Origin: Bacteroidales bacterium
GTDB taxonomy: Bacteria > Bacteroidota > Bacteroidia > Bacteroidales > F082
DNA: 11,199 nt
Direction of reading: 5' to 3'
Assembly (NCBI GenBank): GCA_016281295.1
Contig: JAEEII010000174.1
Span: 1 to 11,199 of the forward strand
In this document: one piece after another, positions 1 to 10,736 of the stretch
Position numbering within the stretch: position 1 is the first letter of the stretch
Layout: each line of letters begins with the position of its first letter
Program-made: the position numbers and the translations under genes
Notes under the pieces: generated by a model
Told to the model about the DNA's origin: nothing
The model's database searches: none
What the model saw: the letters and a program-made list of their open reading frames with translations, nothing else

Positions 1-662
1 GTTTCAACGTTGAACACATTGTTGATGTTCTCGGAAGAGATCACGGTCGAATCGGCCAGAGCCGAGTTGATGTGATAACGAGCATAGCCGAACGAGTACT
101 CGACAACACCACCTGCACCCCCTTTACCAATGAGCTCTATAATTGTGAGATACTCATCTGCAGTAAGGCCAAGAGCGGCCTTAAGATCGCCAACCGTATT
201 AGCAGTAGGTGTCAGACTGATTTTGCCACCATACGTTTCTGGTGTTACAGCAGAGGGAAGAACTGCATTACCCTCAGAAACTACGTAAACACCGGGGAAC
301 GCACCTTTCTCCTTGAACGCATTGAGCAAGAACTGATTTCCGCTAGCAGGATGAGCTGCAACATCAGCCTTGATCAGTGCATAGTTGCGTGAGATGAACT
401 CAGAGATAGAGGGTTGGCCAGTCGGAACGTTGTCGAACGAATGATCGATAATCTGACGCATTGCGCTAACGGCCTGCATCACGGTCGACATGATCATACG
501 GCCACGCATCTGAGCAACCGTCTGGGGGTTAGCAACGGTTTCAGCCAGCGAGCGAACAACCTGCTGCTTGGCTCCTTTAGCATCGCGGCCAATTGAATAG
601 ACGTCAGCACCCACGCGGCCACGAATGTAAGAACGGGTACCACCACTTTTACTTTTTGCCAT
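1..662 (-). CDS. Candidate structural protein A, N-terminal part (continues at 10809-11058)
   Basis: This is the first gene of the late-like unit. The ATG is at 662-660, and the frame runs off base 1 and continues at 11058 down to a TGA at 10811-10809, giving 303 residues. The N-terminus is basic and Gly-rich (MAKSKSGGTR, then GRVG at 15-18). Residues 1-96 align without gaps to the protein encoded at 9735-10736, sharing about 25 positions including GGT 7-9, VG 17-18, QTV 47-49, F76, F89 and N93. The pattern (GRVG, then NPQT, then an amphipathic helical stretch) resembles from memory the Bacteroidota family DUF6266; I could not test this. The remainder (about 130-303) is Gly/Ala/Thr/Ser-rich and probably beta-rich. 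Its first place in the unit, next to lysis-type genes, suggests an abundant virion protein, perhaps a capsid protein. That role is inference. The start is supported by a promoter whose transcript would begin about 75 nt upstream. Confidence 0.85.
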   Translation of the reverse strand, partial: MAKSKSGGTRSYIRGRVGADVYSIGRDAKGAKQQVVRSLAETVANPQTVAQMRGRMIMSTVMQAVSAMRQIIDHSFDNVPTGQPSISEFISRNYALIKADVAAHPASGNQFLLNAFKEKGAFPGVYVVSEGNAVLPSAVTPETYGGKISLTPTANTVGDLKAALGLTADEYLTIIELIGKGGAGGVVEYSFGYARYHINSALADSTVISSENINNVFNVE

Positions 663-744
663 AATTGCAATTGTATTAAAATGAGAACTAGTGGCCGCTA
701 CCCTTGGCCGTTGGGGTTTTGAATTGTGCATTCTTCAACGTCGG

Positions 745-775
745 CAAAGGTACAAAAAATATTTTCTCGGACAAA
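745..775 (-). promoter_or_regulatory. Bacteroidota promoter of the late-like unit
   Basis: Read on the minus strand, TTTG (775-772), 19 nt, then TACCTTTG (752-745) match the Bacteroidota primary sigma consensus TTTG-N19/21-TAnnTTTG. Transcription would start near 738-741, leaving a 5' leader of about 75 nt before the ATG at 662. Confidence 0.82.
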
Positions 776-1059
776 ATTCGGACTTGGGTGGGAGTTGCCC
801 CCACCTAGGTCGGGATTAACTGACTTAATTTTTACAAACGAGCCCGATAGGGCGAGCCGATTTTTAGATTTAATTAAGTTTATTTAAGATAGGGGTGCAG
901 GGGGCGAGAGCCCCCGCCCGCCGTGGCGGGTGATCTCCTATCCCGCCAAGGAGCCCGAAAAACGGGCTAAACACATCGACAAACCGCCATAAAACCTAGA
1001 TAAAGAGCCATATAACACCCACGAACTATCCATAAAAAGGGGCTATTCGTCGAACGACA
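776..1059. other. Intergenic region with clustered hairpins between divergent promoters
   Basis: No gene is visible. The left part has GGTGGG/CCCACC (785-803). GATAGG (888-893) and CCTATC (937-942) can close a three-way junction holding two GC-rich hairpins (GGGGGC-gaga-GCCCCC and CCCGC/GCGGG), followed directly by AGCCCG-AAAAA-CGGGCT (952-968). It lies between the divergent late-like and plus-strand promoters. Confidence 0.6.
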
Positions 1060-1091
1060 TTTGCAAATGTCAAAAAAAAGTCGTATCTTTG
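1060..1091 (+). promoter_or_regulatory. Bacteroidota promoter of the plus-strand unit
   Basis: TTTG (1060-1063), 20 nt, then TATCTTTG (1084-1091) match the Bacteroidota promoter consensus. It is the only convincing plus-strand promoter I see and lies about 70 nt upstream of the preferred start at 1160. Confidence 0.82.
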
Positions 1092-1159
1092 CAGTAGCAA
1101 AGAACAAAATGTATCACCCTTTAGGAACCCCGAGCCGATGGGCTAAACGGCAAACAGAT

Positions 1160-1393
1160 ATGCAGAAATCAGTAATAGTAACGATTGAGCGCCTTGCTAA
1201 CAAGGTGGTCGTATCTAATGACCAGGGTAAAAAATGGGAAATCCCCGTAGATGAACCTGGGAATGATGACTCCTCGGTTAATGGAGTAATCGCGCATATC
1301 GCATCAGCGATGCTAACGGGAACCATAGCAAGCCAACTAAGGCACATTAACGCACGGACTCTTAGATACACCCTAACAATAGACACGATATGA
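1160..1393 (+). CDS. Hypothetical small protein of the plus-strand unit (77 aa)
   Basis: One of only two convincing plus-strand genes. I prefer the ATG at 1160 (MQKSVIVTIERLANK, 77 aa). The same frame is open from an ATG at 1109 (94 aa), but that start would leave only about 10 nt of 5' leader after the promoter at 1060-1091. The protein starts with two likely beta strands (KSVIVTIERLANKVVVSNDQ), a short acidic loop (DEPGNDDSS), then a helix and a final strand (RTLRYTLTIDTI). I do not recognise the family. The TGA stop overlaps the ATG of the next gene (ATGA at 1390-1393), and promoter, two genes and a terminator form a compact unit. Being opposite to the rest of the circle, it may be independently regulated. 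Confidence 0.7.
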   Translation: MQKSVIVTIERLANKVVVSNDQGKKWEIPVDEPGNDDSSVNGVIAHIASAMLTGTIASQLRHINARTLRYTLTIDTI

Positions 1394-1563
1394 TAGAAAC
1401 TCTTTACCCACATAAGCCCTTGAAGCCTGCCGACATCAGCAGGCTTGGGGCAGATCCCTGCAATGGATGTCAGCTGCGTGAGTGGTGCTCTGACGAATGC
1501 GGTGCAATCATACCACTCGACAAAGAAGATAGTGCGCCATTTATATGGCCAAGGTTTAATTAA
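1390..1563 (+). CDS. Small cysteine-rich protein of the plus-strand unit (57 aa)
   Basis: A 57-residue protein starting MIETLYPHKP and ending FIWPRFN, translationally coupled to the gene before it by an ATGA overlap. Residues 24-37 read CNGCQLREWCSDEC, with spacings C-x2-C-x6-C-x3-C that suggest one bound zinc. The D-x-C-x-G-C-x-L-x3-C core matches the minus-strand protein at 3296-3514 (DACDGCDLVSLC). The intrinsic terminator begins at the stop codon. The short length, the terminator and the overlap support a real gene, although no family name can be given. It may be a small DNA- or protein-binding regulator; nothing in the sequence proves this. Confidence 0.72.
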   Translation: MIETLYPHKPLKPADISRLGADPCNGCQLREWCSDECGAIIPLDKEDSAPFIWPRFN

Positions 1564-1592
1564 AAGGGGGCTTTTAGAGCCCCTTTTTTTTT
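1562..1592 (+). terminator. Terminator of the plus-strand unit
   Basis: A stem made from AAAAGGGGGC and GCCCCTTTT arms around a short AT-rich loop is followed by a run of nine T (1584-1592). It starts at the stop codon of the Cys-rich gene and bounds the gene-free region on its left side. Confidence 0.88.
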
Positions 1593-1814
1593 AGAGATTG
1601 GTGTTCGTCCAGCATCGGCGGGCGAAGCCAGCAGACGTGTCCAGACGGGGCAATCTGGCCAAATTTTGTGGAACCCGCGAACAAGGCGCAAGCAAAATAA
1701 AACCATGAAAAACACTCGGGGGGAGCGCGAGGGGGGCAGACAGCCCCACTTGCAAACCGCCGTAGATCATTTATTTTCTGCTGCCGATTTAGAAGGCGGT
1801 AGCCACTAGGGCGA

Positions 1815-1953
1815 GGGGCTATAGCCCCGAGGAAGGTGGGTGGGCGAGGGGCTTAAGCCCCGAGGAATTTGCCCGCGAACGCTACAGCGGGCGCGGGCAC
1901 TGCCCACGTAGCCTATAGGCGAAGAGGGCAGAGCGCAGAGGGGCTATAGCCCC
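1815..1953. repeat. Three GGGGC-centred palindromes
   Basis: GGGGCTATAGCCCC at 1815-1828 and 1940-1953, and GGGGCTTAAGCCCC at 1848-1861, are perfect 14-bp palindromes. The first two are embedded in a longer shared unit (GGGCGAG before, GAGGAA after). A separate palindrome GCCTATAGGC lies at 1911-1920. Confidence 0.85.
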
Positions 1954-2072
1954 GGCGCGCCTGGCGATGGACGTTAAGAAAACGATGAGAGAAGAGATAG
2001 CCAGCCGCCGCAAAAGTAACTTGAAACCACGATGAAAGCCCGACCCCGACGATTTAGCCCCAGCGATATTTA

Positions 2073-2159
2073 TCATAATTCAGCATCGGATTCTCACTTG
2101 AGCAACCAAAAAAACTAAATGCGATGGTATGCCTACCCTCATGAGAATCCGAATTATGA
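2073..2159. repeat. Long inverted repeat with a 6-nt bulge
   Basis: TCATAATTC (2073-2081) and GGATTCTCA (2088-2096) on the left pair perfectly with the continuous right arm 2142-2159, giving 18 bp interrupted only by the unpaired AGCATC (2082-2087). The 45-nt loop carries a small hairpin GGTA-TGCC-TACC (2126-2137). It is much more AT-rich than its surroundings. Confidence 0.8.
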
Positions 2160-2319
2160 CTAAATAACGCCCTCGTGAACCGACAGAGCCTACTGCCAAA
2201 GACTAGGGCGCGCGCAGACCCGGAGCCCAAAGGGCGAGGACACCAGCGCGCCCGCCCCAATTCCCGCCTACATGTACCCGCAATATGGGTAAGCGGGATG
2301 GCGCAAAATCAACGCGACA

Positions 2320-2372
2320 GGGCAGGTCGCGACATTCCGCAGACGGTAACGGCGAGGACGCGCGACCTGCCC
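2320..2372. repeat. Perfect 12-bp inverted repeat
   Basis: GGGCAGGTCGCG (2320-2331) and CGCGACCTGCCC (2361-2372) are exact reverse complements with a 29-nt centre. On its left lie two more hairpins (GGGCGCGC/GCGCGCCC at 2206-2253; TCCCGC/GCGGGA enclosing TACCC/GGGTA at 2262-2298). Confidence 0.85.
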
Positions 2373-2450
2373 GAAGCGGAACATCCTGCGCGCAGCACCG
2401 GGGGTTCGACGGGGGCAGGCAGCCCCCGACGGCGGCAGGATCATCATTAT

Positions 2451-2600
2451 TTCTGTGCGGTAGCCGATAAATTCGGGGGAGCGAAGCGGGGGGCGGCTAA
2501 ATAGCGGCCCCCCACCTATTAGAGCGCAAGGCGGGCTGATAGCTACTTGCAGCGAGCGTCCCTCATAGCTGTGCGGAGAGGGTCGCTCGCTGCAACTAGC
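2451..2600. repeat. Structured module, copy 1
   Basis: Begins TTCTGTGCGGTAGCCGAT (2451-2468). Stem alpha is GGGGGGC-G-GCTA / TAGC-G-GCCCCCC (2488-2513), then ACCTAT. It is followed by a very long hairpin 2542-2600: 4 + 12 + 5 bp (GCTA, TTGCAGCGAGCG, CCCTC with their complements) broken only by one C-C and one T-T mismatch, around a 13-nt loop. Confidence 0.8.
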
Positions 2601-2746
2601 GACAAGCCTGCCTGGAGCGGTCTGCTGCTGCCTATCAACTAATATCGAACCGACGGAATGCCGAAGACAGATGAACCAACCCCAGTTAGCAGGAGGGAGG
2701 GCTAGAGATAGTTAGCCCTCGCCCTGCGGGGATGAACTATGCGCTG

Positions 2747-2930
2747 TTCTGTGCGGTAGCCGATGAACAATGTGCAGGCGGCTAATTAGCGGCCTGCAAC
2801 CTATCTCCCTTTAAGCAGGGGGCAGGGGTAGACGTGGTGCAGGCTTGCCTGCGCGCGCCTATCCCCTGCCGCCTGCGTGGGGTTCACCCCCTCGGGGAGT
2901 GCGAGGGGGAAGGGGGGAGTGGGTGGGGGT
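2747..2930. repeat. Structured module, copy 2
   Basis: Begins with the same 18-mer as copy 1 (2747-2764). Stem alpha is TGCAGGC-G-GCTAATTAGC-G-GCCTGCA (2773-2798), perfect apart from one G-G. Then ACCTATCTCCCTTTAA and stem beta, GCAGG-G-GGCAGGGG with CCCCTGCC-G-CCTGC (2815-2828, 2863-2876). Stem gamma is CCCCCTC/GAGGGGG (2887-2909). A run of G blocks fills 2905-2930. Confidence 0.82.
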
Positions 2931-2978
2931 ATGGTGGGTGGATGAAATGCAAGGCCATCCGCAACCCGTAATCCGCAA

Positions 2979-3185
2979 GTCTGTGCGCCAGCCGACAAAA
3001 ACGGTCGAGGCGGCGCGTAGCGCGGCCGCAGTCCTATCTCCCTTTAAGCAGGGGGCAGGCATTCCAGAACGTAGCCCAAGGGGCCCCATCATAAAAGGGG
3101 AATGGGCGCAGGGCTGGAATGCCTGCCGCCTGCGTGGGGTTACCCCCTCTGGGAGTGAGAGGGGGTAGGGGGAGTGGGTGGGGGC
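2979..3185. repeat. Structured module, copy 3
   Basis: Begins with a diverged copy of the 18-mer (2979-2996). Stem alpha is GGC-G-GCGC / GCGC-G-GCC (3009-3027). Then CCTATCTCCCTTTAA and stem beta, GCAGG-G-GGCAGGCATTCCAG with CTGGAATGCCTGCC-G-CCTGC (3048-3067, 3114-3133), 19 bp with one G-G. Stem gamma is CCCCCTC/GAGGGGG (3143-3165), followed by G blocks to 3184. Confidence 0.82.
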
Positions 3186-3204
3186 TCTGTGGGCTGGACT
3201 AGAA

Positions 3205-3226
3205 GCTATGCGGTCTGCCGCATAGC
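3205..3226. repeat. Perfect 9-bp hairpin
   Basis: GCTATGCGG (3205-3213), a TCTG loop, CCGCATAGC (3218-3226). It sits between module copy 3 and the terminator of the replication unit; its loop and stem echo parts of the module's leading 18-mer. Confidence 0.8.
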
Positions 3227-3230
3227 GACA

Positions 3231-3261
3231 AATAAAAGGTGGGCGATTGAGTGCGCCCACC
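3231..3261 (-). terminator. Terminator of the replication unit
   Basis: On the minus strand GGTGGGCG (3261-3254), an 8-nt loop, CGCCCACC (3245-3238), then TTTTATT. The 8-bp stem is perfect. It lies 35 nt after the last Cys-rich gene and bounds the gene-free region on its right side. Confidence 0.83.
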
Positions 3262-3295
3262 TGCGTAGGGCGATCATGTGCGCCCGGAGCATCCA

Positions 3296-3514
3296 TCATG
3301 AAACCAAGATAAGGAAGCAATTATCCCTTGTTATACTATCGCATTCTTCGCACAGATCACATATAGGATTGCCTTTGTGACAAAGGCTAACCAGATCACA
3401 ACCATCGCAGGCATCCATTTCAAATGGCGCACGGCTCATCCTAACGCATAGGCCAGATACCTCGACAATACCACCTTCTACAAGCCTAATGGCTTTTTCA
3501 TGAACATCTTTCAT
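3296..3514 (-). CDS. Small zinc-finger-like cysteine-rich protein (72 aa)
   Basis: Last gene of the replication unit, 72 residues, starting 1 nt after the PP-loop enzyme's stop. The first 33 residues (MKDVHEKAIRLVEGGIVEVS...) look like a helix followed by strands. Residues 34-60 carry a dense cysteine set: ACDGCDLVSLCHKGNPICDLCEEC, giving C-x2-C, C-x-L-x3-C and C-x2-C-x2-C spacings typical of zinc binding. It shares the D-x-C-x-G-C-x-L-x3-C core with the plus-strand gene at 1390-1563, so the element carries two diverged versions of one Cys module. Small proteins of this pattern are frequent in Bacteroidota mobile elements, from memory without a known function. An intrinsic terminator follows 35 nt after the stop. 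Confidence 0.78.
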   Translation of the reverse strand: MKDVHEKAIRLVEGGIVEVSGLCVRMSRAPFEMDACDGCDLVSLCHKGNPICDLCEECDSITRDNCFLILVS

Positions 3515-3515
3515 A

Positions 3516-4388
3516 TTAAAACTTTGGTTTTGGTAATTTTCTCATCACATCTTCTCTGTCCAGAAAGAAATAATTCTCTAGTATCTCCCAAGGGTCTGTA
3601 TCGAACAGCCCTTGATATGTCTGCTGGAACTTCTCATACCCATGATTTGAGTAGAAGAGGTTATACACCAAGTTGAGTGCTGCATCATTCTCTGTTCGGC
3701 CTTGCCTTTTATGAAAGAGAATACCTCGACGAAGTACCTGCTTGAGTAGGATCGGATAACCCAGATAGTCGAGTTTTCCTCTGTCACCTTGCAAGGGGCA
3801 ACCAATGCACCCTAATCGCCTATCTACACAGAATTTGCCTTGAGCATCATAATAGATTGGATGCATTTCAATATCATGCTCATTGACAATATTCTGGATA
3901 TCCTCATCAGTGAACAAGAGTATCGGAAAAAACCTATTCGAAAAGATCTTTTTTGTGTAATAATACACATCATCAAATGCTGAATAGCACTTTGTCCTTT
4001 TGACTGACTCACCTTTCCTAATGCCAAAGAAACCATAACTATCAATATAACGCTCTTTCAATTCTTCACAACAAAATCGCCTGAACATTGTAGGAAATCC
4101 TTTCATTTCCACTAAATCCAGAAAGGAGTGATTATTTCGCCTTAACTCACAATTGTGCTTTACAGCGAACGGTAAAGTGCCCTCTGGATCAATCGTTGTG
4201 ACATTATGAACCATTCGCACCTTTGCACCTGCTTCTTTAGCTAGGAACTCCAGTACACACGAATCCTTACCCGACGAAAAGGCAAGAAAGCAATTATGCT
4301 GACTCGCCACAGAACGAATAAACCGAACGGCCTTTTCAACTTTCTCTTTTGTCGTAAGTATATCCCATTTATCTGTATTATCTTCCAT
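3516..4388 (-). CDS. PAPS reductase-like PP-loop ATPase (DndC/CysH superfamily)
   Basis: A 290-residue protein of the adenine-nucleotide alpha-hydrolase (PP-loop) superfamily, subgroup phosphoadenosine phosphosulfate reductase-like. Visible features are the PP-loop FSSGKDS (37-43), a CC pair in RRFCCEELKE (103-112), GIRKGES (122-128), the usual substrate-side GIRxxES motif, and GCIGCP (193-198) giving CxxC at 194-197. CC plus distal CxxC is the ligand pattern of the [4Fe-4S] APS reductases and relatives, so an iron-sulfur cluster is likely. Family members reduce PAPS/APS, install sulfur in DNA backbone (DndC) or act on tRNA. Phage copies are common and their substrate is usually unknown. Here it lies in the replication unit after Rep, flanked by two small Cys-rich genes. 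A DNA- or tRNA-thiolation or anti-defence role is plausible but unproven. The downstream gene starts 1 nt after its stop. Confidence 0.88.
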   Translation of the reverse strand: MEDNTDKWDILTTKEKVEKAVRFIRSVASQHNCFLAFSSGKDSCVLEFLAKEAGAKVRMVHNVTTIDPEGTLPFAVKHNCELRRNNHSFLDLVEMKGFPTMFRRFCCEELKERYIDSYGFFGIRKGESVKRTKCYSAFDDVYYYTKKIFSNRFFPILLFTDEDIQNIVNEHDIEMHPIYYDAQGKFCVDRRLGCIGCPLQGDRGKLDYLGYPILLKQVLRRGILFHKRQGRTENDAALNLVYNLFYSNHGYEKFQQTYQGLFDTDPWEILENYFFLDREDVMRKLPKPKF

Positions 4389-4574
4389 ATTTCTTCAATT
4401 TTTTGGCTGTTTATGTGGGTGCGCCCGGGGGCGCGGGGGTGCGCGGGCGGGTGTGCCCGCATCCGTGAGAGAAAATCGCCCGAAATCCCTGCCTACAGGG
4501 GGTTTTCGCCGTATTACACACTGAAATCGCAGTGCGGTATTACTGTACCGCACTGTCTGTGCGGAAAATCAGCC
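4389..4574. other. Gap in the replication unit with hairpins, including a perfect 10-bp one
   Basis: This 186-nt gap interrupts an otherwise tightly packed unit. It holds CAGTGCGGTA-TTACTG-TACCGCACTG (4530-4555, perfect 10 bp), GCGGGC/GCCCGC (4443-4460), CCCTG/CAGGG (about 4488-4501) and TCTGTGCGG (4556-4564), which matches the start of the structured modules. It is GC-rich like the gene-free region. Its place just downstream of rep makes it a candidate nick site or RNA-processing signal. Confidence 0.55.
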
Positions 4575-4742
4575 CTAGAAAGGGCGGTTTTTCGGGTCGT
4601 AGGGCTCGAAATGGCGGCAAGCCATGGAGCCAGCATACACTCCGCAACCTAAGAATTTGCAATGTATCATATTCTCTTTGTTAGGTTGAGTGATGCACCA
4701 AATGCAGTCGGCACATTTCCAGTTCTTTCCATTCTTTTCCAT
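4575..4742 (-). CDS. Small cysteine-rich protein, putative metal-binding (55 aa)
   Basis: A 55-residue protein starting at the ATG at 4742, 1 nt after the Rep stop, so translation is probably coupled. Seven of its residues are cysteine or a plausible metal-binding histidine in an ordered pattern: KCADCIWC at residues 9-16, then HC at 28-29, GC at 32-33, C42 and H44. Pairs spaced as in zinc ribbons or iron-sulfur proteins suggest a structural Zn or Fe-S site. I know no named family. The next gene is an enzyme that is itself cysteine-rich, and a further Cys-rich protein follows it, so the three may work together in sulfur or redox chemistry. This is inference from neighbourhood. Confidence 0.75.
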   Translation of the reverse strand: MEKNGKNWKCADCIWCITQPNKENMIHCKFLGCGVYAGSMACRHFEPYDPKNRPF

Positions 4743-4743
4743 A

Positions 4744-6033
4744 CTAGAACATTTCATCGTTAAACAACATTTCTTGGATTTCCGCAATCGTTTCGAGTAT
4801 CTTCACCTCTGGGTGCTTCATTCGTAGGGCTAGCGTGCGTCGCAGGGCTTCTACCTCTGCAAATATCTGCTTCGGAGTGTATCGACGAAGATCTTCGGTT
4901 TCGATGAACTGAAGCAGGGCAGAACAAGCATCGCGAACGGCCATATCGGAGTGAGTGTTTCGGAAGGTGGTCAATCGCCTGCGAAGCACCTCCAAATCAT
5001 TTTCGGGTTTTCTGCCCTCGACACAATTGTCGATGTGGAGAAATTCGCGGTCAGCTGCCCACTTGAACAGCTTCTTTTCTGGACAGAGGTCTTTTCTGAC
5101 GGGTGTCCATTCTGATTTATTCACCACCTTACCTAGAGCGACCGCCACAAGTGATCTTGATTCCTCTTTAAAACGAGCCACCTTGAATTGGAAATAGTGG
5201 AATGCAAGGTCTTGGAATCTCTGCCAGAGTTTATCGGGGCTATCGAACAAATCAAGGGTGTGAGGAATAGCACGTTTCTTCATTCGCTTACCCTCTTGCG
5301 ACTCTATCACCAACCATCTTTCGGCCTTACTTTTCAGACTAAACTCGACTCGCCAAATCTCGGGTTTATAGACCTCACCATTGTGTCTGCGCTTTGTTCC
5401 GTTTATAGGATCGTCTATTAACCCTGCGTTGAACCAGGCAAGTTTAATGTAGGTCTTTTCACGGCTTACGGTGTCTATCTCTAGCGACTTGTTGTATAGC
5501 TTTGTTGACACCATCGATGTAGGGCTACCCCATGACAATGACTCCCAATTAAATTGGCTCCAATTGTCCATGCCAAAGGCATTCAGTTTGGATTGATTCA
5601 CTTTGCGATAACGGCCTTGTATATACCTGCGAGCGAAGCGAGCAGGCTGGTCACCGTAATCAAACTGCTCGAAGTCATAAGCAATGTCTATACGAAAGAT
5701 CTTTTTGAAAACATATCCATGTCGTAGCATAAACTGCCGCAATCGCTCGATGCAGTCGGTCACATAACACTGCGAGTTAACCAAACGTAGCCTGCATGAG
5801 TATTCTGTAAGACCCGTAAATGAACTTGCACCCGACGGCGGGCATCTACGCACCTCAATCCATGGATGGCCATCGGCATCTTCGAGCGTAAAGACCTGGC
5901 TCCAGACTCTGGTACCATACTCACGCTCCTTGACGAAATAACCCTGCTCTCTGAAATATTCAGCATTGCAGGGAAAGTTTCGTGCAGACTCTTCGCAAGA
6001 GACCTCTAGCCAATCGAGATTGATACAGCGCAT
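4744..6033 (-). CDS. rep: Rolling-circle replication initiation protein (Rep)
   Basis: A 429-residue protein of the phage/plasmid replication initiator type (Rep_trans-like). Visible signatures are FRIDIAYDF at 113-121 (the RiD-x-A-x-DF motif that positions the metal and active site), STKLYNKSLE at 176-185 with the candidate nucleophilic Tyr180, and WRVEFSLK at 227-234, the RxE motif following it. Such proteins nick one strand at the double-strand origin, stay attached through tyrosine and start leading-strand synthesis with host polymerase and helicase. The C-terminal 180 residues are helical and charged, probably for DNA binding or oligomerisation. Similar Reps occur in Bacteroidota plasmids and small phages, including, as I recall, the Flavobacterium ssDNA phage FLiP. 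The stop codon is 1 nt from the next gene. The cognate nick site cannot be assigned by eye. Confidence 0.88.
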   Translation of the reverse strand: MRCINLDWLEVSCEESARNFPCNAEYFREQGYFVKEREYGTRVWSQVFTLEDADGHPWIEVRRCPPSGASSFTGLTEYSCRLRLVNSQCYVTDCIERLRQFMLRHGYVFKKIFRIDIAYDFEQFDYGDQPARFARRYIQGRYRKVNQSKLNAFGMDNWSQFNWESLSWGSPTSMVSTKLYNKSLEIDTVSREKTYIKLAWFNAGLIDDPINGTKRRHNGEVYKPEIWRVEFSLKSKAERWLVIESQEGKRMKKRAIPHTLDLFDSPDKLWQRFQDLAFHYFQFKVARFKEESRSLVAVALGKVVNKSEWTPVRKDLCPEKKLFKWAADREFLHIDNCVEGRKPENDLEVLRRRLTTFRNTHSDMAVRDACSALLQFIETEDLRRYTPKQIFAEVEALRRTLALRMKHPEVKILETIAEIQEMLFNDEMF

Positions 6034-6072
6034 ATTAGTTGATGATGAACTTAAAACATCGACACAATCAAG

Positions 6073-6303
6073 TTAAAACCAAGTTCCAACGGACTTTAGA
6101 ATTAACTTATCCTCGATGATCTTATAACCGTCAGGTTTCCACTTGACAATGAGTGTACGGCCATTGCTACGGTGATGCAGTTTAATGACCCACAGATTGT
6201 CAGAGTGCGAAAAGAAAACTCGCTGATAACCGTTAAACTCGAGGTCGGAACACTCTTGGAGTGCCCCGACCTGCATTTCGGTTCTAACTACTAGTTCGCT
6301 CAT
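6073..6303 (-). CDS. Hypothetical protein between SSB and Rep (76 aa)
   Basis: A 76-residue protein starting MSELVVRTEM. Its start overlaps the SSB stop in an ATGA arrangement, and it ends 39 nt before Rep starts, so it is a genuine member of the replication unit. It looks like a small, soluble, mostly beta protein (YQRVFFSHSDNLWVIKLHH, then GRTLIVKWKPDGYKIIED) with no membrane span, signal peptide or cysteine motif; the single Cys is at residue 18. I do not recognise the family. Position suggests an accessory factor for Rep or for host interaction, but nothing in the sequence identifies the activity. Confidence 0.75.
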   Translation of the reverse strand: MSELVVRTEMQVGALQECSDLEFNGYQRVFFSHSDNLWVIKLHHRSNGRTLIVKWKPDGYKIIEDKLILKSVGTWF

Positions 6304-6830
6304 ATCTGCTCCTCTTCGGGCTGTTCTAACACTGCCTTGGGAACCACGAAACCAGCCTTGTTCTGCGCATACTCACCACCACGATTATCGACAAGCACAC
6401 GGAACTCATCTTTCTTCAATGGCTTTGTATCCATGTTACACCAATAGTGCTTCGTGACATCATACAATGCACCATCGGCAGGATCTATCAACTGACGTGG
6501 AACCTCATCAGACTGGCCACCACATAACTCAATCTCTTGCGCTGCAATCGACAATCCTGCCACCATTCTTTTGAGTTTGGGTGACGAATAGCATCTGAGC
6601 GAAGCATTGCCCCGGGCAAAGATCTTCACTCCTGCTTTGAGATAGGGTAAAACCTTGGAGTCAACATTGTTGAACGTAACATCGACCCACTCAGTCTGTT
6701 CGTGAGTCTTCTGGTCTTGGTCAGTCCACTTACTAGAGTGCGCAACGCGCATAGCCACAAACTTAGAGCCATTGGATTCTTTAACCTCGGCATCGGCTCC
6801 CAAATTACCGATAATTTCACATTTAAGCAT
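6300..6830 (-). CDS. ssb: Single-stranded DNA-binding protein (SSB)
   Basis: A 176-residue protein whose first 105 residues match the bacterial/phage SSB OB fold: IIGNLGADAEVKESNGSKFV at 6-25, VAHSSKW at 29-35, TEWVDVTFNN at 46-55, KVLPYLKAGVKIFARGN at 59-75. It binds single-stranded DNA, protecting the displaced strand during rolling-circle replication, which fits its position two genes upstream of Rep. Residues 106-176 do not look like the usual flexible Gly/Pro-rich linker. They form a compact-looking segment (YDVTKHYWCNMDT, then DEFRVLVDNRGGEY). The tail ends EQPEEEQI and lacks the canonical acidic DDDIPF-type tip, so recruitment of host repair and replication proteins may differ. It overlaps the next gene by 4 nt (ATGA), indicating coupled translation. 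Confidence 0.92.
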   Translation of the reverse strand: MLKCEIIGNLGADAEVKESNGSKFVAMRVAHSSKWTDQDQKTHEQTEWVDVTFNNVDSKVLPYLKAGVKIFARGNASLRCYSSPKLKRMVAGLSIAAQEIELCGGQSDEVPRQLIDPADGALYDVTKHYWCNMDTKPLKKDEFRVLVDNRGGEYAQNKAGFVVPKAVLEQPEEEQI

Positions 6831-6870
6831 AAGACGTAAATTATTTAAAATGAAACAAAAAAGTGATTAA

Positions 6871-7404
6871 TCACATGGAACGTTCAAGGCCCTCTAGTAA
6901 TGCACCAAGTAAGAAGAGAATAACACATGCCAACATACCAAACGCTGCATTAAACAATACCCACTCGCCTTGTGGACTTAGGTTTTTACGTAGGTTAGGT
7001 TGGCGCGATGTATTACAATGAGAGGATGATTTGGAGGATAAAAAGGCGGGGCAGAGGATCGAGAGTAGGCGAAAGCGGTTGCGATTGTAAACCGAATCTG
7101 GCTTGATGTAATCTAGTGTACCGTCGATGATGGACTTATACAATTCTGCAACAGAGATAACTACGGTCGAATATAAAACATCGAAACCGCTAGAACCTCG
7201 CATAGAGCCACCACAGCGCAGAATTAACTCAGAGTGGGTGACATCATCAAATGGGCGAAAGTAGTACCCACAATCCTGCGCATAGTTCTCCAAAAGGGAA
7301 CGTTTTACTTGATCACGATGCGTGGTACCCACCTTGACTTTGAACACGATGGAACCTGGACTGAATTGCCCACAATCCTTGAAAAAACAATAATACTTTA
7401 CCAT
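6871..7404 (-). CDS. Hypothetical protein with C-terminal membrane segment (177 aa)
   Basis: First full-length gene of the replication unit, not recognised. The N-terminal 110 residues look like a soluble alpha/beta domain (MVKYYCFFKD, then KVKVGTTHRDQVKRSLLENYAQD). They are followed by a Ser/Asn/Arg-rich linker (about 115-145) and one strongly hydrophobic segment at about 148-172 (WVLFNAAFGMLACVILFLLGALLEG) near the C-terminus. That topology predicts a tail-anchored inner-membrane protein facing the cytoplasm. The 11 nt ending 3 nt before its ATG can pair perfectly with the upstream leader RNA, so its translation is probably controlled. Position upstream of SSB and Rep suggests a role in replication, membrane attachment of replication, or host takeover; this is inference only. 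Its stop codon overlaps a 12-bp palindrome at 6863-6874. Confidence 0.7.
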   Translation of the reverse strand: MVKYYCFFKDCGQFSPGSIVFKVKVGTTHRDQVKRSLLENYAQDCGYYFRPFDDVTHSELILRCGGSMRGSSGFDVLYSTVVISVAELYKSIIDGTLDYIKPDSVYNRNRFRLLSILCPAFLSSKSSSHCNTSRQPNLRKNLSPQGEWVLFNAAFGMLACVILFLLGALLEGLERSM

Positions 7405-7407
7405 AAT

Positions 7408-7553
7408 GTTATGCGTTTTAGGTAGTTACGTAATAAGGCTGCTTAACTCCCTAGAATCGGCATTGTGATAAATAGAATCGCAAGCCCGAAGAGAAAAAAA
7501 AGACCCGAGCAATCTATCTAGCAAAGAACCAATCACTCGGGCAAACGCATAAC
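7408..7553. repeat. 11-bp inverted repeat linking leader RNA and ribosome-binding region
   Basis: GTTATGCGTTT at 7408-7418 and AAACGCATAAC at 7543-7553 (plus strand) are exact reverse complements 124 bp apart. On the transcript the downstream arm ends 3 nt before the ATG at 7404, where the ribosome would bind. Confidence 0.8.
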
Positions 7554-7581
7554 TGCGCCAAACCTTCGCTTTTACGTTCAT
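7426..7581 (-). CDS. Putative leader peptide of the replication unit (51 aa)
   Basis: A 51-codon frame starting MNVKAKVWRS at 7581 and ending TAA at 7428-7426. An AGAGG sequence lies 7-11 nt upstream of its ATG, which is unusually Shine-Dalgarno-like for this molecule. It starts about 30 nt after the predicted transcript start from the promoter at 7619-7650. An intrinsic terminator (hairpin 7504-7541 plus U tract 7494-7501) sits in the middle of the frame, so most transcripts would end before the stop codon unless the hairpin is prevented from forming. It may therefore be a regulatory leader ORF whose translation controls read-through, rather than a functional protein. The product is basic in its first half and resembles nothing I know. 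It could also be a chance frame within a small RNA. Confidence 0.4.
   Translation of the reverse strand: MNVKAKVWRSYAFARVIGSLLDRLLGSFFSLRACDSIYHNADSRELSSLIT
7494..7541 (-). terminator. Intrinsic terminator inside the replication-unit leader
   Basis: On the minus strand CCCGAG...CTCGGG forms a stem (positions 7541-7536 with 7509-7504; inner pairs including wobbles extend it to about 11 bp), followed by TCTTTTTTTT. It lies between the only visible promoter and the first full-length gene, which makes it an attenuator. Confidence 0.75.
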
Positions 7582-7614
7582 GGGTCTACCTCTAGTTGCC
7601 CATTATCCTAAAGC
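7494..7614 (-). ncRNA. Attenuated leader RNA of the replication unit
   Basis: Predicted transcript of about 120 nt from the promoter at 7619-7650 to an intrinsic terminator. Elements in order: a 5-bp hairpin (arms 7603-7599 and 7584-7580) that holds the AGAGG of the leader ORF in its loop and overlaps its ATG, an anti-RBS segment 7553-7543, then a terminator stem (CCCGAG 7541-7536 with CTCGGG 7509-7504, extendable to 11 bp with G-U pairs) and a U-rich tract 7503-7494. The anti-RBS segment is perfectly complementary to 7418-7408, directly upstream of the 177-aa gene start. It could act in cis as an attenuator or in trans as a small RNA. Confidence 0.6.
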
Positions 7615-7618
7615 ACCG

Positions 7619-7650
7619 CAAATGTACGATTATAGTAGAACGTGGGCAAA
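7619..7650 (-). promoter_or_regulatory. Bacteroidota promoter of the replication unit
   Basis: On the minus strand, TTTG (7650-7647), 20 nt, then TACATTTG (7626-7619). No other consensus promoter is visible between here and the 177-aa gene at 7404, so the replication unit probably depends on it. Transcription would start around 7612-7614, upstream of the leader ORF and its internal terminator. Confidence 0.8.
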
Positions 7651-7654
7651 TATA

Positions 7655-7761
7655 ATCGACAAACCAAGTAGTTTTCATCGACAAACAAACTCAATCCATA
7701 CAGAAACGACACCATAACCAAACTGAAACCAACAGTACACTCACATAAAACATCGACATAC
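7655..7761. promoter_or_regulatory. ATCGACAAAC direct repeats upstream of the replication promoter
   Basis: ATCGACAAAC occurs at 7655-7664 and 7677-7686, exactly 22 bp apart (two helical turns), beginning 4 bp upstream of the -33 box, with a 9/10 match ATCGACATAC at 7752-7761. The same 10-mer recurs at 975-984 upstream of the plus-strand promoter. They may bind a regulator or Rep. The rest of 7651-7812 is AT-rich and holds no credible gene. Confidence 0.5.
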
Positions 7762-7812
7762 CAGAAACGTAACAAAACTGCTTCAAAAATCAGAATTATC
7801 TCAAACGTAACC

Positions 7813-7841
7813 AAAAAAATACCCGAAAATTAAGTTTCGGG
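7813..7841 (-). terminator. Terminator of the RHH regulator gene
   Basis: On the minus strand CCCGAAA (7841-7835), a 6-nt loop, TTTCGGG (7828-7822), then a U tract (7819-7813). It overlaps the last codons of the regulator and separates it from the replication promoter. Confidence 0.82.
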
Positions 7842-8072
7842 CTTCGGATCAATGGTTAACGACAGGTGCATTCGGTCAACTTGCGCCTTATCATGCTCAT
7901 AAGTATGCACAATCTGGCTGATATCCCGCTCATCGAGTTTGAGCAGGATAAACCATAGTAATTTGCACATCACGGCTGATCGGCTATACCACCTCAAACC
8001 ATGAGTAACAGCGTCTAGTTTGTCTAGTAAATCCCTCTCCATTCTGACGGAGACCGTTTTATCTTTTTCCAT
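7830..8072 (-). CDS. Ribbon-helix-helix transcriptional regulator
   Basis: An 80-residue protein. Residues 5-45 fit the ribbon-helix-helix fold: a short beta-strand KTVSVRM (5-11) followed by two helices (ERDLLDKLDAVTHG and SRSAVMCKLLWFILLKL). Such proteins dimerise and bind palindromic operators. I start it at the ATG at 8072 because the promoter's -7 box lies at 8100-8107, so the in-frame start at 8102 would fall in the promoter. The promoter spacer holds a 7-bp inverted repeat (GGTAATT / AATTACC), consistent with autorepression. The C-terminal 35 residues are charged and of unknown role. An intrinsic terminator overlaps the end of the gene, so it is probably expressed alone, placed between the late-like and replication units where a switch or copy-control repressor would sit. 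Confidence 0.8.
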   Translation of the reverse strand: MEKDKTVSVRMERDLLDKLDAVTHGLRWYSRSAVMCKLLWFILLKLDERDISQIVHTYEHDKAQVDRMHLSLTIDPKPET

Positions 8073-8099
8073 AACAGCTATTTTTAAAAGTTCACGGTG

Positions 8100-8131
8100 C
8101 AAAGATAGGTAATTTTCAGTGAATTACCAAA
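8100..8131 (-). promoter_or_regulatory. Promoter of the RHH regulator with embedded operator
   Basis: On the minus strand, TTTG (8131-8128), 20 nt, then TATCTTTG (8107-8100). The spacer is almost filled by an inverted repeat, GGTAATT (8108-8114), 7 nt, AATTACC (8122-8128). A dimer bound there would block RNA polymerase, as expected for autorepression by the ribbon-helix-helix protein encoded just downstream. Confidence 0.82.
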
Positions 8132-8143
8132 CTTTATTCATGA

Positions 8144-8181
8144 AATGTAATACAAAAGAAGATCTGCACTTGTATTACATT
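8144..8181. repeat. Perfect 12-bp inverted repeat upstream of the RHH promoter
   Basis: AATGTAATACAA (8144-8155) and TTGTATTACATT (8170-8181) are perfectly complementary around a 14-nt centre. It lies 13 bp upstream of the regulator's -33 box and contains the same GTAAT/ATTAC half-sites as the operator within that promoter, so it may be a second binding site for the same protein. The arm and spacer lengths do not fit a Xer dif site. Confidence 0.75.
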
Positions 8182-8214
8182 CTGGAGACGTTTCGGGATA
8201 TCTCATCGAGTATA

Positions 8215-8249
8215 TAAAAAAGCCCTGCGCGCAATCACTGCGAGCAGGG
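8215..8249 (-). terminator. Terminator of the late-like unit
   Basis: On the minus strand CCCTGC and GCAGGG arms, with a further 3 bp after one mismatch, enclose a 7-nt loop (8249-8223), followed by a run of seven T (8221-8215). It follows the lipoprotein gene by 29 nt. Confidence 0.88.
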
Positions 8250-8277
8250 ATAAAAGTCTAAACAACATAGTGGCCAC

Positions 8278-8481
8278 CTAGCGCACATTGTGAACTTTCG
8301 GACGAATTGAATCGGTGGCCAAAGTGTTCGGTTTCTCCGACCATTCCCACAGAACCTCTAATTGACCTGTGCGATGGTTATAGGTCGCAATCCCGCTGGA
8401 GTTGACCAGATACCATCGAGTTGGAGAACAAGCAGATACGACTATAAGGCCGAACACTAAAAAGAATACCACTTTTGCCAT
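8278..8481 (-). CDS. Small lipoprotein, possible outer-membrane spanin or entry-exclusion factor
   Basis: A 67-residue protein with a lipoprotein signal: hydrophobic residues 3-14 followed by the lipobox VSAC with Cys18, predicting a mature lipidated protein of about 50 residues. The mature part is Trp- and Tyr-rich (RWYLVNSSG, LEVLWEWSEK). I start it at the ATG at 8481 because that places the signal sequence at the N-terminus; an in-frame start further upstream would bury it. It is the last gene of the late-like unit, 33 nt after the P5-like gene and 29 nt before the terminator. Small lipoproteins at the end of lysis cassettes include outer-membrane spanins, but no inner-membrane spanin partner is evident, so superinfection exclusion is an equal alternative. 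Both are inference. Confidence 0.75.
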   Translation of the reverse strand: MAKVVFFLVFGLIVVSACSPTRWYLVNSSGIATYNHRTGQLEVLWEWSEKPNTLATDSIRPKVHNVR

Positions 8482-8513
8482 AACGTTGACGAATATGTTT
8501 AAAATGAAAAGAG

Positions 8514-8936
8514 TCACACCAAGTCGTAGGCGGTTTCGCACGCATCCTGGGATATGCGTTGGCCGCACTCGACGAAAGCCATGGCCATGACAATCTTAAT
8601 CATGGTCTTACGGTCTAGGAACCAAATCCGCTGATAAGGACTTATCCCTACTTCATCGGCCACAAAGTCGATATACTTTTTCGTGGCATTTTCAACCTCG
8701 GGAGCCCATCGCGAAATGATCTTCGCGATTGTGTCGCAAGGCTTGCGATGGCCATCGTCACCGGAGATATATTTTTTGAGCAGTTTGAAGCCAGCCCGCA
8801 GGCCCATCTCTATACTCTCAAACTCTTCAAAAGCAGGATCGGTTTGCGGATGCCTTTCGCCCTGCCAATTGTTACCCTTTCGGATGTTTAGGGGGTTGTT
8901 GTTTCTGATACCCCGAGGAATCTTTTTCTCAATCAT
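8514..8936 (-). CDS. P5-like virion peptidoglycan hydrolase
   Basis: A 140-residue protein whose N-terminus (IPRGIRNNNPLNIRKGNNWQGE, residues 6-27) carries the RGIRNNNPxNIR signature of proteins annotated in Bacteroidota and phages as structural protein P5 or muramidase-like. The following acidic stretch FEEFESIEMGLRA (37-49) and the pattern DTIAKIISRWAPEVEN (68-83) also fit that family. These proteins have a lysozyme-like fold and are thought to open peptidoglycan locally during entry or lysis. There is no signal peptide, so release to the cell wall would need the holin-like protein or incorporation in virions. Length is typical for the family. It overlaps the nuclease stop by 8 nt. The glycan-cleaving role is inferred from the family; I cannot assign the catalytic Glu with certainty. 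Confidence 0.85.
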   Translation of the reverse strand: MIEKKIPRGIRNNNPLNIRKGNNWQGERHPQTDPAFEEFESIEMGLRAGFKLLKKYISGDDGHRKPCDTIAKIISRWAPEVENATKKYIDFVADEVGISPYQRIWFLDRKTMIKIVMAMAFVECGQRISQDACETAYDLV

Positions 8937-9522
8937 GCTGGTTAGTAAATAATTGGCAGGCGATCACCGTAAGGGAATCAGCTGCGTAGATAACTTTTAT
9001 ATAGCCATGAGGGACGGCCACTTTGCCGCCAGCTATGCGGCTAGTGTCCTCATGTGTGAAGATAGGAGCGACGCGGATGTGCACGCGCCCAAGGCGAAGC
9101 GCGGCCACCCGTTCGTAGTTTTCCATACGTTTCCATGCACCCGTATTGAGTGATGGTAGTTGCGGACAGACGTTCGACATTACGAACGTTTCCTGCATCG
9201 CGGCCAGACTGCTTGAGCGGTCGGCCGCTGGTACCATGTGGCCACGATGGTAGCCCGATTGCGAGTAGTCATCTGAACACACAGCATCGGGGCCAAGGCG
9301 AGGATCAGCGCGGAACGGCATAGACGGTTCGCGCTTGACGGTACCAATATCATCGCGGGTTACATCCCAAGCGATGTAGATGGGCAAACCAAGCGACGAA
9401 CTGTACACTGCGTTCCACGTGGAAAAGGAGAGGTCAACCTCTGTAGTTTTACTCTGGGCGATGGCTACTGAAGCTATAACCCAGGAGCATAGTATCAATA
9501 TGGTAATGGTTCTACTTATCAT
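8929..9522 (-). CDS. Secreted DNA/RNA non-specific endonuclease (NUC family)
   Basis: A 197-residue protein with an N-terminal signal peptide (about residues 1-23, hydrophobic core TITILILCSWVIASVAIA), so it is expected in the periplasm or outside the cell. It carries the beta-beta-alpha-metal nuclease signature: RGHMVPAADR at 93-102, whose His95 corresponds to the catalytic His of DRGH, then SNVCPQ at 116-121, and N126 with E134, spaced as the metal-binding Asn and helix Glu are in the Serratia/NucA family. The Asp that normally precedes RGH is His here. Such enzymes cleave single- and double-stranded DNA and RNA. A secreted nuclease inside a lysis-type cassette could degrade host nucleic acid during release or entry, or salvage nucleotides; which is unknown. 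The gene overlaps both neighbours (11 nt with the membrane protein, 8 nt with the P5-like gene). Confidence 0.9.
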   Translation of the reverse strand: MISRTITILILCSWVIASVAIAQSKTTEVDLSFSTWNAVYSSSLGLPIYIAWDVTRDDIGTVKREPSMPFRADPRLGPDAVCSDDYSQSGYHRGHMVPAADRSSSLAAMQETFVMSNVCPQLPSLNTGAWKRMENYERVAALRLGRVHIRVAPIFTHEDTSRIAGGKVAVPHGYIKVIYAADSLTVIACQLFTNQHD

Positions 9523-9733
9523 TGTGTTTTGGTTGACGCGGATAAGTAAACTTATAGTCGATGCCGAAGATAGTTGCGGTCAATGTTAGGAACTGCGCGC
9601 ACATCATCAGCACTCCAGCTTCTATGTCGTGGTCAGGGCTTATGATTAAGGATGTGAAAGCCAATCCCACAGCGGCAAAAAAACTGCATACAGCCACAAA
9701 TTTTTCATGTTTACGTGATTGCATAATAATCAT
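9512..9733 (-). CDS. Small two-span membrane protein, holin-like
   Basis: A 73-residue protein with two hydrophobic segments, about residues 12-31 (FVAVCSFFAAVGLAFTSLII) and 39-58 (starting AGVLMMCAQF), joined by a short acidic turn (SPDHDIE). It has a basic N-terminus and a basic, proline-containing C-terminal tail. Size and topology are those of a class II holin. It sits between the putative structural genes and a secreted nuclease plus a muralytic protein, so a holin role is a reasonable inference, though small virion membrane proteins look the same. It begins 1 nt after the stop of gene B and overlaps the nuclease gene by 11 nt, so it is tightly embedded in the unit. A second in-frame ATG at 9724 (MQSRKHEK) could be the true start. 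No sequence motif identifies it as a specific holin family. Confidence 0.75.
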   Translation of the reverse strand: MIIMQSRKHEKFVAVCSFFAAVGLAFTSLIISPDHDIEAGVLMMCAQFLTLTATIFGIDYKFTYPRQPKHNDK

Positions 9734-9734
9734 A

Positions 9735-10736
9735 TCAATACGGGAATGGCACTGGAGCAGGAATCACGGGGTTCGTCCATGATGAAACGCAGGCGGCAGG
9801 ATATCGCCAATAACCCCACTCTATATCATGGTCATCAATCAAGTAATCAAGTCGAGCGGATGATATCTGTTTTCGGCCATTGACATACGTGATAGTGAAA
9901 GCCTTGCCTAAAACGGGCACATAGTCACCAATATCATCACCATGCCTAAAACCGATACAAAACGCATATTTCCATTGAGGTTGGTATTCTGTTGGCCGAC
10001 AGAACTGTGTTAATCCCCATTTATTAGACTTGATAGTAAACAAGGCTTGTATGTGCTCTTCATCTGCAGGATCAGACTCTCTCACTTGATGGTTCATGCG
10101 AACCTGGCACCACACATATTCACCTTCTTTATCCTCATCTTGATTTGTTGAGTATTGGGCTAGCCAAATCTCGGTAGACCATGTTAGCCGCAAGCGGCTC
10201 ATGAATTTCTTTATAGTCCAACCGGTAGGTGGCATCATAAAGAAAACACCGAAATGCAGCAGGCCGACTTTTACATCAGGATCAAGCCAATCATCAGGGA
10301 AAGCATGTCCGAAATAACCGTCGAAGCAATTATACTGAAGCGACCCCGAGGAAAGGATATAACGGCCACCCGTCCTTATTCGTTCACCCTTGAAAGCGAA
10401 CTCAAACTCATGCACTTCATCCCAATAATCCTTTGCTTCTCGGGCCAATAGCATGAGGTTATATGAAGAGAAAGCGTTTAGCGACTTGGACTTGTTCACA
10501 GCTGACTGAAACCCAACACTAGCGAGTGGTTTTAATTGCTTCATCATGGCTTCCACCATTCCTGTACACATCTGTTGGACAGCCAGTTTCACGGTCTGCG
10601 TCTGCGCCTTGGTAGGCACATAGGCCGACACCTTTTGAGCGTAGGATCCATTAGATTCCTGCACGATGCCGAGCACCGTATCACCGACTTTGCCCGACTT
10701 TAAAGATTTCGTACCACCAACTCTTCCACTTGCCAT
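9735..10736 (-). CDS. Candidate structural protein B, paralogue of A at its N-terminus
   Basis: A 333-residue protein of unknown family. I chose the ATG at 10736 (MASGRVGGTK) over an in-frame ATG 16 codons upstream because it aligns residue for residue with the start of protein A. Residues 1-96 form the shared module (GGT 7-9, GKVG 15-18, QTV 47-49, F76, F89, N93). From about residue 100 the two proteins diverge completely. B becomes rich in Trp, Tyr and Phe, looks beta-rich (for example RTGGRYILSSG and WCQVRMNHQV), and ends in a proline-rich tail (NPVIPAPVPFPY). A common N-terminal module carrying different C-terminal domains fits two virion proteins built on one assembly or membrane-attachment module, such as major and minor capsid, or vertex and spike; this is inference. 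The stop codon lies 1 nt before the next gene, suggesting translational coupling. Confidence 0.85.
   Translation of the reverse strand: MASGRVGGTKSLKSGKVGDTVLGIVQESNGSYAQKVSAYVPTKAQTQTVKLAVQQMCTGMVEAMMKQLKPLASVGFQSAVNKSKSLNAFSSYNLMLLAREAKDYWDEVHEFEFAFKGERIRTGGRYILSSGSLQYNCFDGYFGHAFPDDWLDPDVKVGLLHFGVFFMMPPTGWTIKKFMSRLRLTWSTEIWLAQYSTNQDEDKEGEYVWCQVRMNHQVRESDPADEEHIQALFTIKSNKWGLTQFCRPTEYQPQWKYAFCIGFRHGDDIGDYVPVLGKAFTITYVNGRKQISSARLDYLIDDHDIEWGYWRYPAACVSSWTNPVIPAPVPFPY

Follow-up and report, generated by a model that had tools for sequence, protein, structure and literature searches.

In filamentous phages, the intergenic region holds a packaging hairpin, a minus origin and a plus origin. Primosome assembly sites (PAS) are hairpins of single-stranded DNA (ssDNA) that load priming proteins, with AAGCGG as the PAS motif, and GOLLD and ROOL are large structured phage RNAs. 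Single-strand origins (sso) are, in the excerpts consulted of two published accounts, folded, orientation-specific and position-flexible, with priming by RNA polymerase or primase (PMC5703833, PMC4595007), and an excerpt of a third indicates that the CS-6 box of known sso seems to serve as a terminator (PMC10378824). Here, we analyzed an 11,199-nucleotide (nt) stretch of DNA, contig JAEEII010000174.1 from a Bacteroidales bacterium, called the window at its full length, in which an initial annotation made from the letters alone had pointed to three successive structured modules at 2451–3185. We tentatively propose, at somewhat less than an even chance, that these modules are the sso on the folded + strand of a virus-like, Bacteroidales-associated rolling-circle element. 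Taken as a folded-ssDNA control region, they would most likely serve as the start of the complementary strand, with packaging as the second candidate role.

The modules resemble described sso (ssoA, ssoU, ssoT, ssoW, ssoL and sso1 of ICEBs1) in being folded and in one orientation, in lying beside the predicted double-strand origin (dso) of a Rep_trans-type replicon, and, in larger circles, in having accessory genes between themselves and rep. Each module opens with a short lead, in which TAGCCGA or CAGCCGA is reminiscent of, but not identical to, the CS-6 box TAGCGA/T. Unlike sso, the modules have no sequence match in the searched plasmid records and stand in three copies, and they have a layout of mismatch hairpin and G-rich tail that is not known from sso and are associated with Bacteroidales. 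They also resemble the filamentous-phage intergenic region, as a row of hairpins beside a putative nick site in a small circle with virus-like genes, but the genes run opposite to the assumed displaced strand, and this comparison is one of layout, not of sequence; the ten window proteins scanned in each library (Pfam, PHROGs) matched neither a filamentous coat family nor a Zot family. With phiX174-type PAS and single-strand initiation (ssi) sites they would share ssDNA hairpins, and the leads often show GCGG before TAGCC, but AAGCGG is present in only some copies. Like GOLLD and ROOL, the region is long, GC-rich, multi-helical and non-coding; unlike them, it has no Rfam match at gathering score, no internal consensus promoter and no clear G-U bias. 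Overall, structured control regions next to rolling-circle origins are a known kind of element, and the layout, the mismatch hairpin and the host lineage appear to be new. The modules are composed as follows.

2451–2468, + strand: lead of copy 1 (TTCTGTGCGGTAGCCGAT), an 18-mer identical to the lead of copy 2
2488–2513, + strand: alpha hairpin of copy 1, G.G mismatch 2495/2506
at 2515 (copy 1), 2800 (copy 2) and 3033 (copy 3), + strand: CCTAT
2524–2618, + strand: long stem of copy 1, an inverted repeat (arms 2524–2564/2578–2618) with no relation to the beta stems of copies 2 and 3
2747–2764, + strand: lead of copy 2
2773–2798, + strand: alpha hairpin of copy 2, G.G mismatch 2780/2791
2805–2919, + strand: P1 of copy 2 (about 2805–2812 with 2910–2919), enclosing beta and gamma
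2815–2876, + strand: beta of copy 2, G.G mismatch G2820/G2871
2887–2909, + strand: gamma of copy 2
2919–2944, + strand: G-rich tail of copy 2 (GTGGGTGGGGG..GGTGGGTGG)
2979–2996, + strand: diverged lead of copy 3, whose GCGCCAGCCGACAAA is present in the related element L057 too
3009–3027, + strand: alpha hairpin of copy 3, G.G mismatch 3012/3024
3038–3178, + strand: P1, beta and gamma of copy 3
3048–3133, + strand: beta of copy 3, G.G mismatch G3053/G3128
3143–3165, + strand: gamma of copy 3
3174–3198, + strand: G-rich tail of copy 3

All the leads, alpha and beta stems, CCTAT motifs, gamma stems and G-rich ends quoted in the initial annotation were located at the positions it gave. Its description of three successive copies of one module holds for the lead, alpha and CCTAT, which all copies possess, and fails for the long stem of copy 1. 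As it had noticed, gamma and the G-rich end are common to copies 2 and 3 only, copy 1 being without both, and the G.G mismatch of beta stands at the same place in these two copies. In addition, we observed a second kept mismatch that it had overlooked, G.G at one place in all three alpha stems.

To describe this hairpin across relatives (designated by L numbers), we sought the pattern GGC-purine-G...C-G-GCC with at least three inner pairs in 14 elements. Eight matches were obtained, five of them behind a lead: window copies 1–3, L056 (at 1357 on the reverse strand, behind the same lead) and L221 (at 8046, where the lead is diverged). The remaining three, one on the − strand of the window and one on each strand of L064, were without module context. 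In the five alpha hairpins, which come from three circles, 49 of 55 cells are Watson-Crick around the mismatch and 7 of 11 positions (o7, o6, o5, o4, i2, i3 and i4) are altered on both sides, while the purine-G mismatch itself is G.G in four hairpins and A.G in one. When the 3' arms were permuted in all 120 ways, no assignment but the true one reached 49 (mean 33.6, next best 44), in a set where hairpins were recognized partly by pairing and three of the five are paralogues. These results support selection on the alpha hairpin as a folded single strand, and for this hairpin they bear out the initial claim that covariation indicates such selection.

Folding of each copy, which the initial annotation had proposed, gave z values of −4.0 to −7.8 for copies 1–3, on both strands and with RNA and DNA parameters, where z compares the folding energy with that of 60 dinucleotide shuffles per stretch. 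Two coding controls gave 0.0 to −1.4, and with DNA parameters none of 200 shuffles equalled the folding of copy 2. The stretches 1600–1990 and 1991–2450 of the same region gave −3.3 to −7.1, and 2641–2746 gave −2.2 to −4.0. Since these neighboring stretches are about as structured, strong folding is a trait of the whole region and not just of the three copies. G-quadruplex patterns were matched on the + strand of the window at 2894, 3151 and 4417 and nowhere on its − strand; among ten other elements, four (L056, L057, L064 and L063) had one or two + strand matches and none had a − strand match.

Bases 1–141 of the window are identical to bases 11059–11199, and with this 141-nt terminal repeat the window is a circle with a unit of 11,058 bp. 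Its rolling-circle context is predicted from two features.

4744–6033, − strand: Rep, with a predicted pT181-type (Rep_trans) rolling-circle initiator fold
4530–4555, + strand: putative nick origin (dso) hairpin with its loop around TTACTG, adjoining rep

In the PDB, the Rep model matched 4cij, 4cwc and 4cwe, and these only, at E<=0.001. By sequence, 14 of 42 relatives reached Pfam Rep_trans at E<=1 (best 0.002, which is weak), and no solved structure was matched. The model thus predicts for Rep the fold of pT181-type initiators. A dso-like hairpin was observed in 11 of 16 related elements (part of this count with a looser test), and the conserved hairpin beside rep is probably the nick origin. 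The modules lie 5' of it on the + strand, with their leads in one orientation.

In the proposed sso mechanism, Rep would nick the hairpin at about 4530–4555 and one strand, presumably the + strand, would be displaced as ssDNA. The modules, being 5' of the nick hairpin, would fold once single-stranded, and host RNA polymerase or a primase/primosome may then be loaded at the folded + strand. The primer for the complementary strand would head for the lead, and there the primer may be ended or positioned by the alpha hairpin and by the T tract as read on the other strand. The several module copies would provide redundancy.

We further searched for the lead as AGCCGA-N(0-3)-AAA on both strands of 13 elements. 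In the structured region and opposite to the rep strand, it was found twice in the window, three times in L056, twice in L066 and once each in L057 and L064; window copy 2 was left out of the count, TGAAC replacing its A tract, and one L131 match lay outside the structured region of that element. By strand, the five positive regions, picked for having a lead, showed 9 matches versus 0, with a shuffled mean of 0.32. Over their second half, window copies 2 and 3 align with copy Yb of L066 and copy Sc of L056: CC..TCTCCC, GTGGGG and the G-rich tail are kept, the gamma arms differ yet pair, and beta is unalignable. Most relatives, not all, have a GC-rich stretch of their own. As to the sets behind these counts, the origin-hairpin count covers 16 elements, with L135 and L065 in this count only, and apart from the lead listing L221 figures only in the counts for the origin and for alpha. 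Stem mismatches were counted in 11 elements (without L141 and L145) and promoters in 11 (without L143 and L145).

The initial annotation had allowed for ssDNA or RNA as the folded strand. Bacteroidales promoters have the consensus TTTG or TTG, 17–22 nt, TAnnTTTG. Such promoters stand ahead of the window gene groups at 1060 (+) and at 8131, 7650 and 775 (−), and none was found inside 1593–3237; over the 11 elements, one + match lies at the edge of the interval drawn for a region (L131). The surroundings of the region are as follows.

1060–1091, + strand: Bacteroidales-type promoter of the + strand genes by the above consensus, facing the region with the 1566–1592 hairpin between
1566–1592, + strand: terminator-like hairpin with T9 after two + strand genes, read by eye (the scan lists only a − strand version)
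1593–3237, no strand assigned: GC-rich structured non-coding region with the modules, between two terminator-like hairpins
3237–3262, − strand: terminator-like hairpin of 9 pairs with a T-rich tail, after the − strand genes, from the terminator scan

The terminator scan of 1400–4700 gave 6 matches versus 3.9 in shuffles, and its single matches are weak. The single mismatches in stems of 11 elements comprised 15 G-T and 10 A-C, with no clear RNA-type bias. GG, AG and GT together numbered 49, their complements CC, CT and AC 21, and AA with TT 12; composition would lead one to expect about 41 to 29 for the first two groups, by a rough hand estimate, and the excess at 49:21 does no more than hint at folding of the + strand. 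Since no consensus promoter lies inside, terminator-like hairpins stand on both sides and no clear G-U excess was observed, the alternative left by the initial annotation leans to DNA, not decisively. On the gene-sense strand, the lead reads as a T tract and then TCGGCT[A/G][C/G]CGC behind a hairpin, which fits a primer ending there as well as a plain terminator. A protein-coding reading of 1593–3237 was rejected, as its seven listed open reading frames (ORFs), of 61–153 codons, had no family match in either Pfam or PHROGs at E<=0.1.

Several observations weigh against an sso. The promoters at 1060 (+) and at 8131 and 7650 (−) face the region with only terminator-like hairpins between, the L140 promoter at 7716 (−) could fire into its own region, and − strand promoters lie inside the intervals drawn for the regions of L142 and L144. 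The lead was absent from the structured region in 8 of the 13 scanned elements, whose regions are folded but different. Copies Yb and Sc carry the lead without an alpha hairpin, and P1 is out of register, with a different partner in the window copies and in L066 and L056; beta moreover differs in every copy, so that the initial claim of selection on folding is supported for some parts of the modules and not for all. The alignable copies are few, and their stems vary in length. Fourfold sites did not point consistently to either strand as the exposed one. We also count against the sso reading that distant blastn of 1560–3290 found no match in 72,556 plasmid records, where individual sso classes were not compared singly, and none in phage records.

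Of the other explanations, we consider a packaging or assembly signal unlikely; the folded ssDNA hairpins would here be bound by a coat protein or a Rep-coat complex, a role that may coexist with priming and that a hairpin fulfills in filamentous phages. It is suggested by the virus-like genes of these elements (the L056 homologue, its match to ctQiC1 and the label of L057 as 'Bacteriophage sp.'), by a promoter towards the virus-like gene at the left edge of the region in 5 of 11 elements (L056, L066, L064, L140 and L142), and by the resemblance of multiple folded copies with a kept internal mismatch to protein-binding sites. In the window, two + strand genes intervene between the region and the virus-like gene. 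The modules vary much among elements, which speaks against packaging, as does the fact that no capsid fold was identified in the PDB at E<=0.001. A structured non-coding RNA, made from the + strand or as the 3' part of a − strand transcript, seems rather less probable still. RNAs typically keep unpaired sequence conserved between covarying helices, the folding z is equally good with RNA parameters, and the promoters facing the region from both sides make read-through transcripts possible; it is disfavored by the absence of a consensus promoter inside the window region, by the terminator-like hairpins at both its sides and by the G-T to A-C mismatch counts. The Rfam search suggested in the initial annotation also speaks against an RNA, with no match at gathering score in the window (two far below it, one falling on copy 1's long stem) and no family at this score in L056, L066, L064, L221 and L057.

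The modules may also be leftward intrinsic terminators, made of alpha and the A tract of the lead, that shield the region and the virus-like promoter from read-through, which we find quite improbable. In copies Sa and Ya the scans show a hairpin followed within 2 nt by T5–T6, in L064 a short stem followed by T7 is seen by eye, and in 10 of 12 listed leads the 9 letters ending with the first T of TCGGCT include five or more T. Yet window copies 1 and 2 have a poor tract (AATTTA, TTGTTCA) and a lead that stays conserved beyond it, a terminator needs neither the conserved TCGGCT[A/G][C/G]CGC nor the purine-G mismatch, a separate terminator-like hairpin is already present at 3262–3237, and the scans yield few matches beyond those of shuffles (L056, 6 vs 3.3; L066, 2 vs 3.2). 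Finally, we hold it very unlikely that the palindromes are neutral filler, arisen by replication slippage or by shuffling between elements with no selection on folding. Stem sequences that differ in every copy and unrelated repeats at the same place in several elements (the L131 units, the 19-bp tandem repeats of L140/L141) would suit this explanation; it sits poorly with the partial conservation of each of the lead, the purine-G mismatch, ACCTAT/ACACC and the G-rich tail, in one orientation, across circles with Reps 48–49% identical to that of the window.

In agreement with the initial annotation, searches of Rfam and of phage and plasmid records brought up no named element of this layout. 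Peptide patterns of Rep and of the virus-like protein found no relative in IMG/VR; such patterns miss diverged members, since the relative L174 (= L131) is present there. Lead DNA patterns gave 54 and 63 stretches in the same collection, which were judged to be chance because none encodes a Rep or virus-like protein in hidden Markov model searches. The G-rich 16-mer gave 74 stretches, of which L174 alone encodes the Rep. In six whole genomes the lead pattern occurred at 18 places, 3 of them in known circles (L066 twice, L064 once); 12 of the 15 others, in ten stretches, looked by eye like ordinary genes or intergenic sequence. In the literature searched, we found no description of an sso of Bacteroidales rolling-circle elements, and the element is not described in the consulted parts of two gut surveys (PMC8530359, PMC10159846).

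Besides rep, the following genes were recognized, and all of these, like rep, are on the − strand of the window.

6300–6830, − strand: single-strand DNA-binding protein (SSB; Pfam SSB)
8929–9522, − strand: NucA-like nuclease (Pfam/PHROGs library scans)
8514–8936, − strand: endolysin-like protein (library scans)
3516–4388, − strand: 3'-phosphoadenosine 5'-phosphosulfate (PAPS)-reductase-like protein (library scans)
3–662, continuing over the circle junction at 11198–10809, − strand: virus-like protein, with a promoter-like site at 775
9735–10724, − strand: second protein, with a start similar to that of the virus-like protein (ORF list)

The PAPS-reductase-like gene is accessory cargo and sits between the nick-type hairpin and the modules. 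Among the ten window proteins, head or tail labels (Pfam, PHROGs) fell on the endolysin-like protein only, where the PHROGs label reflects a domain shared with larger virion proteins. The virus-like protein is 58% identical to that of L056, and a search with this homologue gave 3011 relatives among 7995 candidates scored. The predicted model of the L056 protein (mean predicted local distance difference test score, pLDDT, 81.7) had no match in the PDB at E<=0.001; in a viral library its one strong match was a 'virus sp. ctQiC1' protein (E 9.9e-28, 47% identity), and one further entry matched weakly (E 5.4e-4). The term virus-like is used because no capsid was recognized. No match to the protein was found in plasmid records. 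Its relatives have the N-terminal part in common, and individual ones match differing adhesin- or lectin-like domains, mostly weakly. Neither tandem repeats nor tRNA genes were found in the window.

A protein search, made without DNA context, gave 1557 Rep relatives at E<=1e-5 among 5119 candidates. Circles related to the window stem from animal guts. Identity to the window Rep was 49% for L055 and 48% for L056, both genome contigs, and 33% over 67% of the query for L057, a phage record labeled 'Bacteriophage sp.' from human faeces. The DNA of the other relatives came from Rep profile searches of whole genomes, in groups that overlap: 3 of 393 genomes in the order of G001, 2 of 399 in its family and 8 of 358 in the family of G247 at E<=1e-8; 1 of 395 in the class of G001 at E<=1e-20; 2 of 58 in the genus of G001 and 1 of 3 in the family of G228 at E<=1e-15. 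A 141-nt terminal repeat was also observed in the small circles L066 (14,752 including the repeat), L064 (5,000), L063 (4,801), L144 (3,279) and L221 (9,707); L066 is the whole contig of L055, the start of L056 recurs at 11157, and in L140 a 7,434-bp unit is present nearly twice. L056 is a complete circle, and its binning with a Saccharibacteria genome is probably a mis-bin, given that Bacteroidales is indicated by the relatives of its Rep and by its type of promoter.

The relatives also carry repeats of other kinds. The 16-mer GGGGTGGTGGTCGGGG is exact in the structured regions of L056, L066 and L131 (five times in the last) and lies in another intergenic stretch of L057, outside its structured region. 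In L140 (7437–7590) and L141 (1–60), 19-bp tandem repeats (GTTGGGAGCCCGTAGGCA.) occupy the place of the modules, and the reverse strand of L057 has four GCGG-hairpin-ACACCGC copies (5066, 5597, 6029, 6287), a motif also present in L066 and L142. Over 485–9538, L131 (= L174, IMG/VR 2639762917) has microvirus-type major head, replication and pilot proteins and an integrase, followed by an SSB, the same Rep family, a nick-type hairpin and repeats with GGGGTGGTGGTCGGGG; it may be a hybrid, or an ssDNA provirus adjoining a rolling-circle element.

Beyond the single locus, the modules may represent a new class of folded-ssDNA element that directs both priming and packaging in Bacteroidales ssDNA viruses with pT181-type Reps. 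Its modular cassettes would consist of an AGCCGA lead, a hairpin whose purine-G mismatch is obligatory, an ACCTAT joint, a long stem of variable sequence, a second hairpin and a G-rich tail, and its bearers would form an extensive, little-described lineage of Bacteroidales viruses with small circular ssDNA genomes; class and lineage are one joint proposal, which we consider doubtful. If true, an ssDNA hairpin that covaries and keeps its mismatch would be a testable recognition element, a vector tool and a family marker, and the family so marked is one scarcely reached by the pattern scans of IMG/VR, despite 1557 relatives of its Rep and at least 3011 of its virus-like protein.
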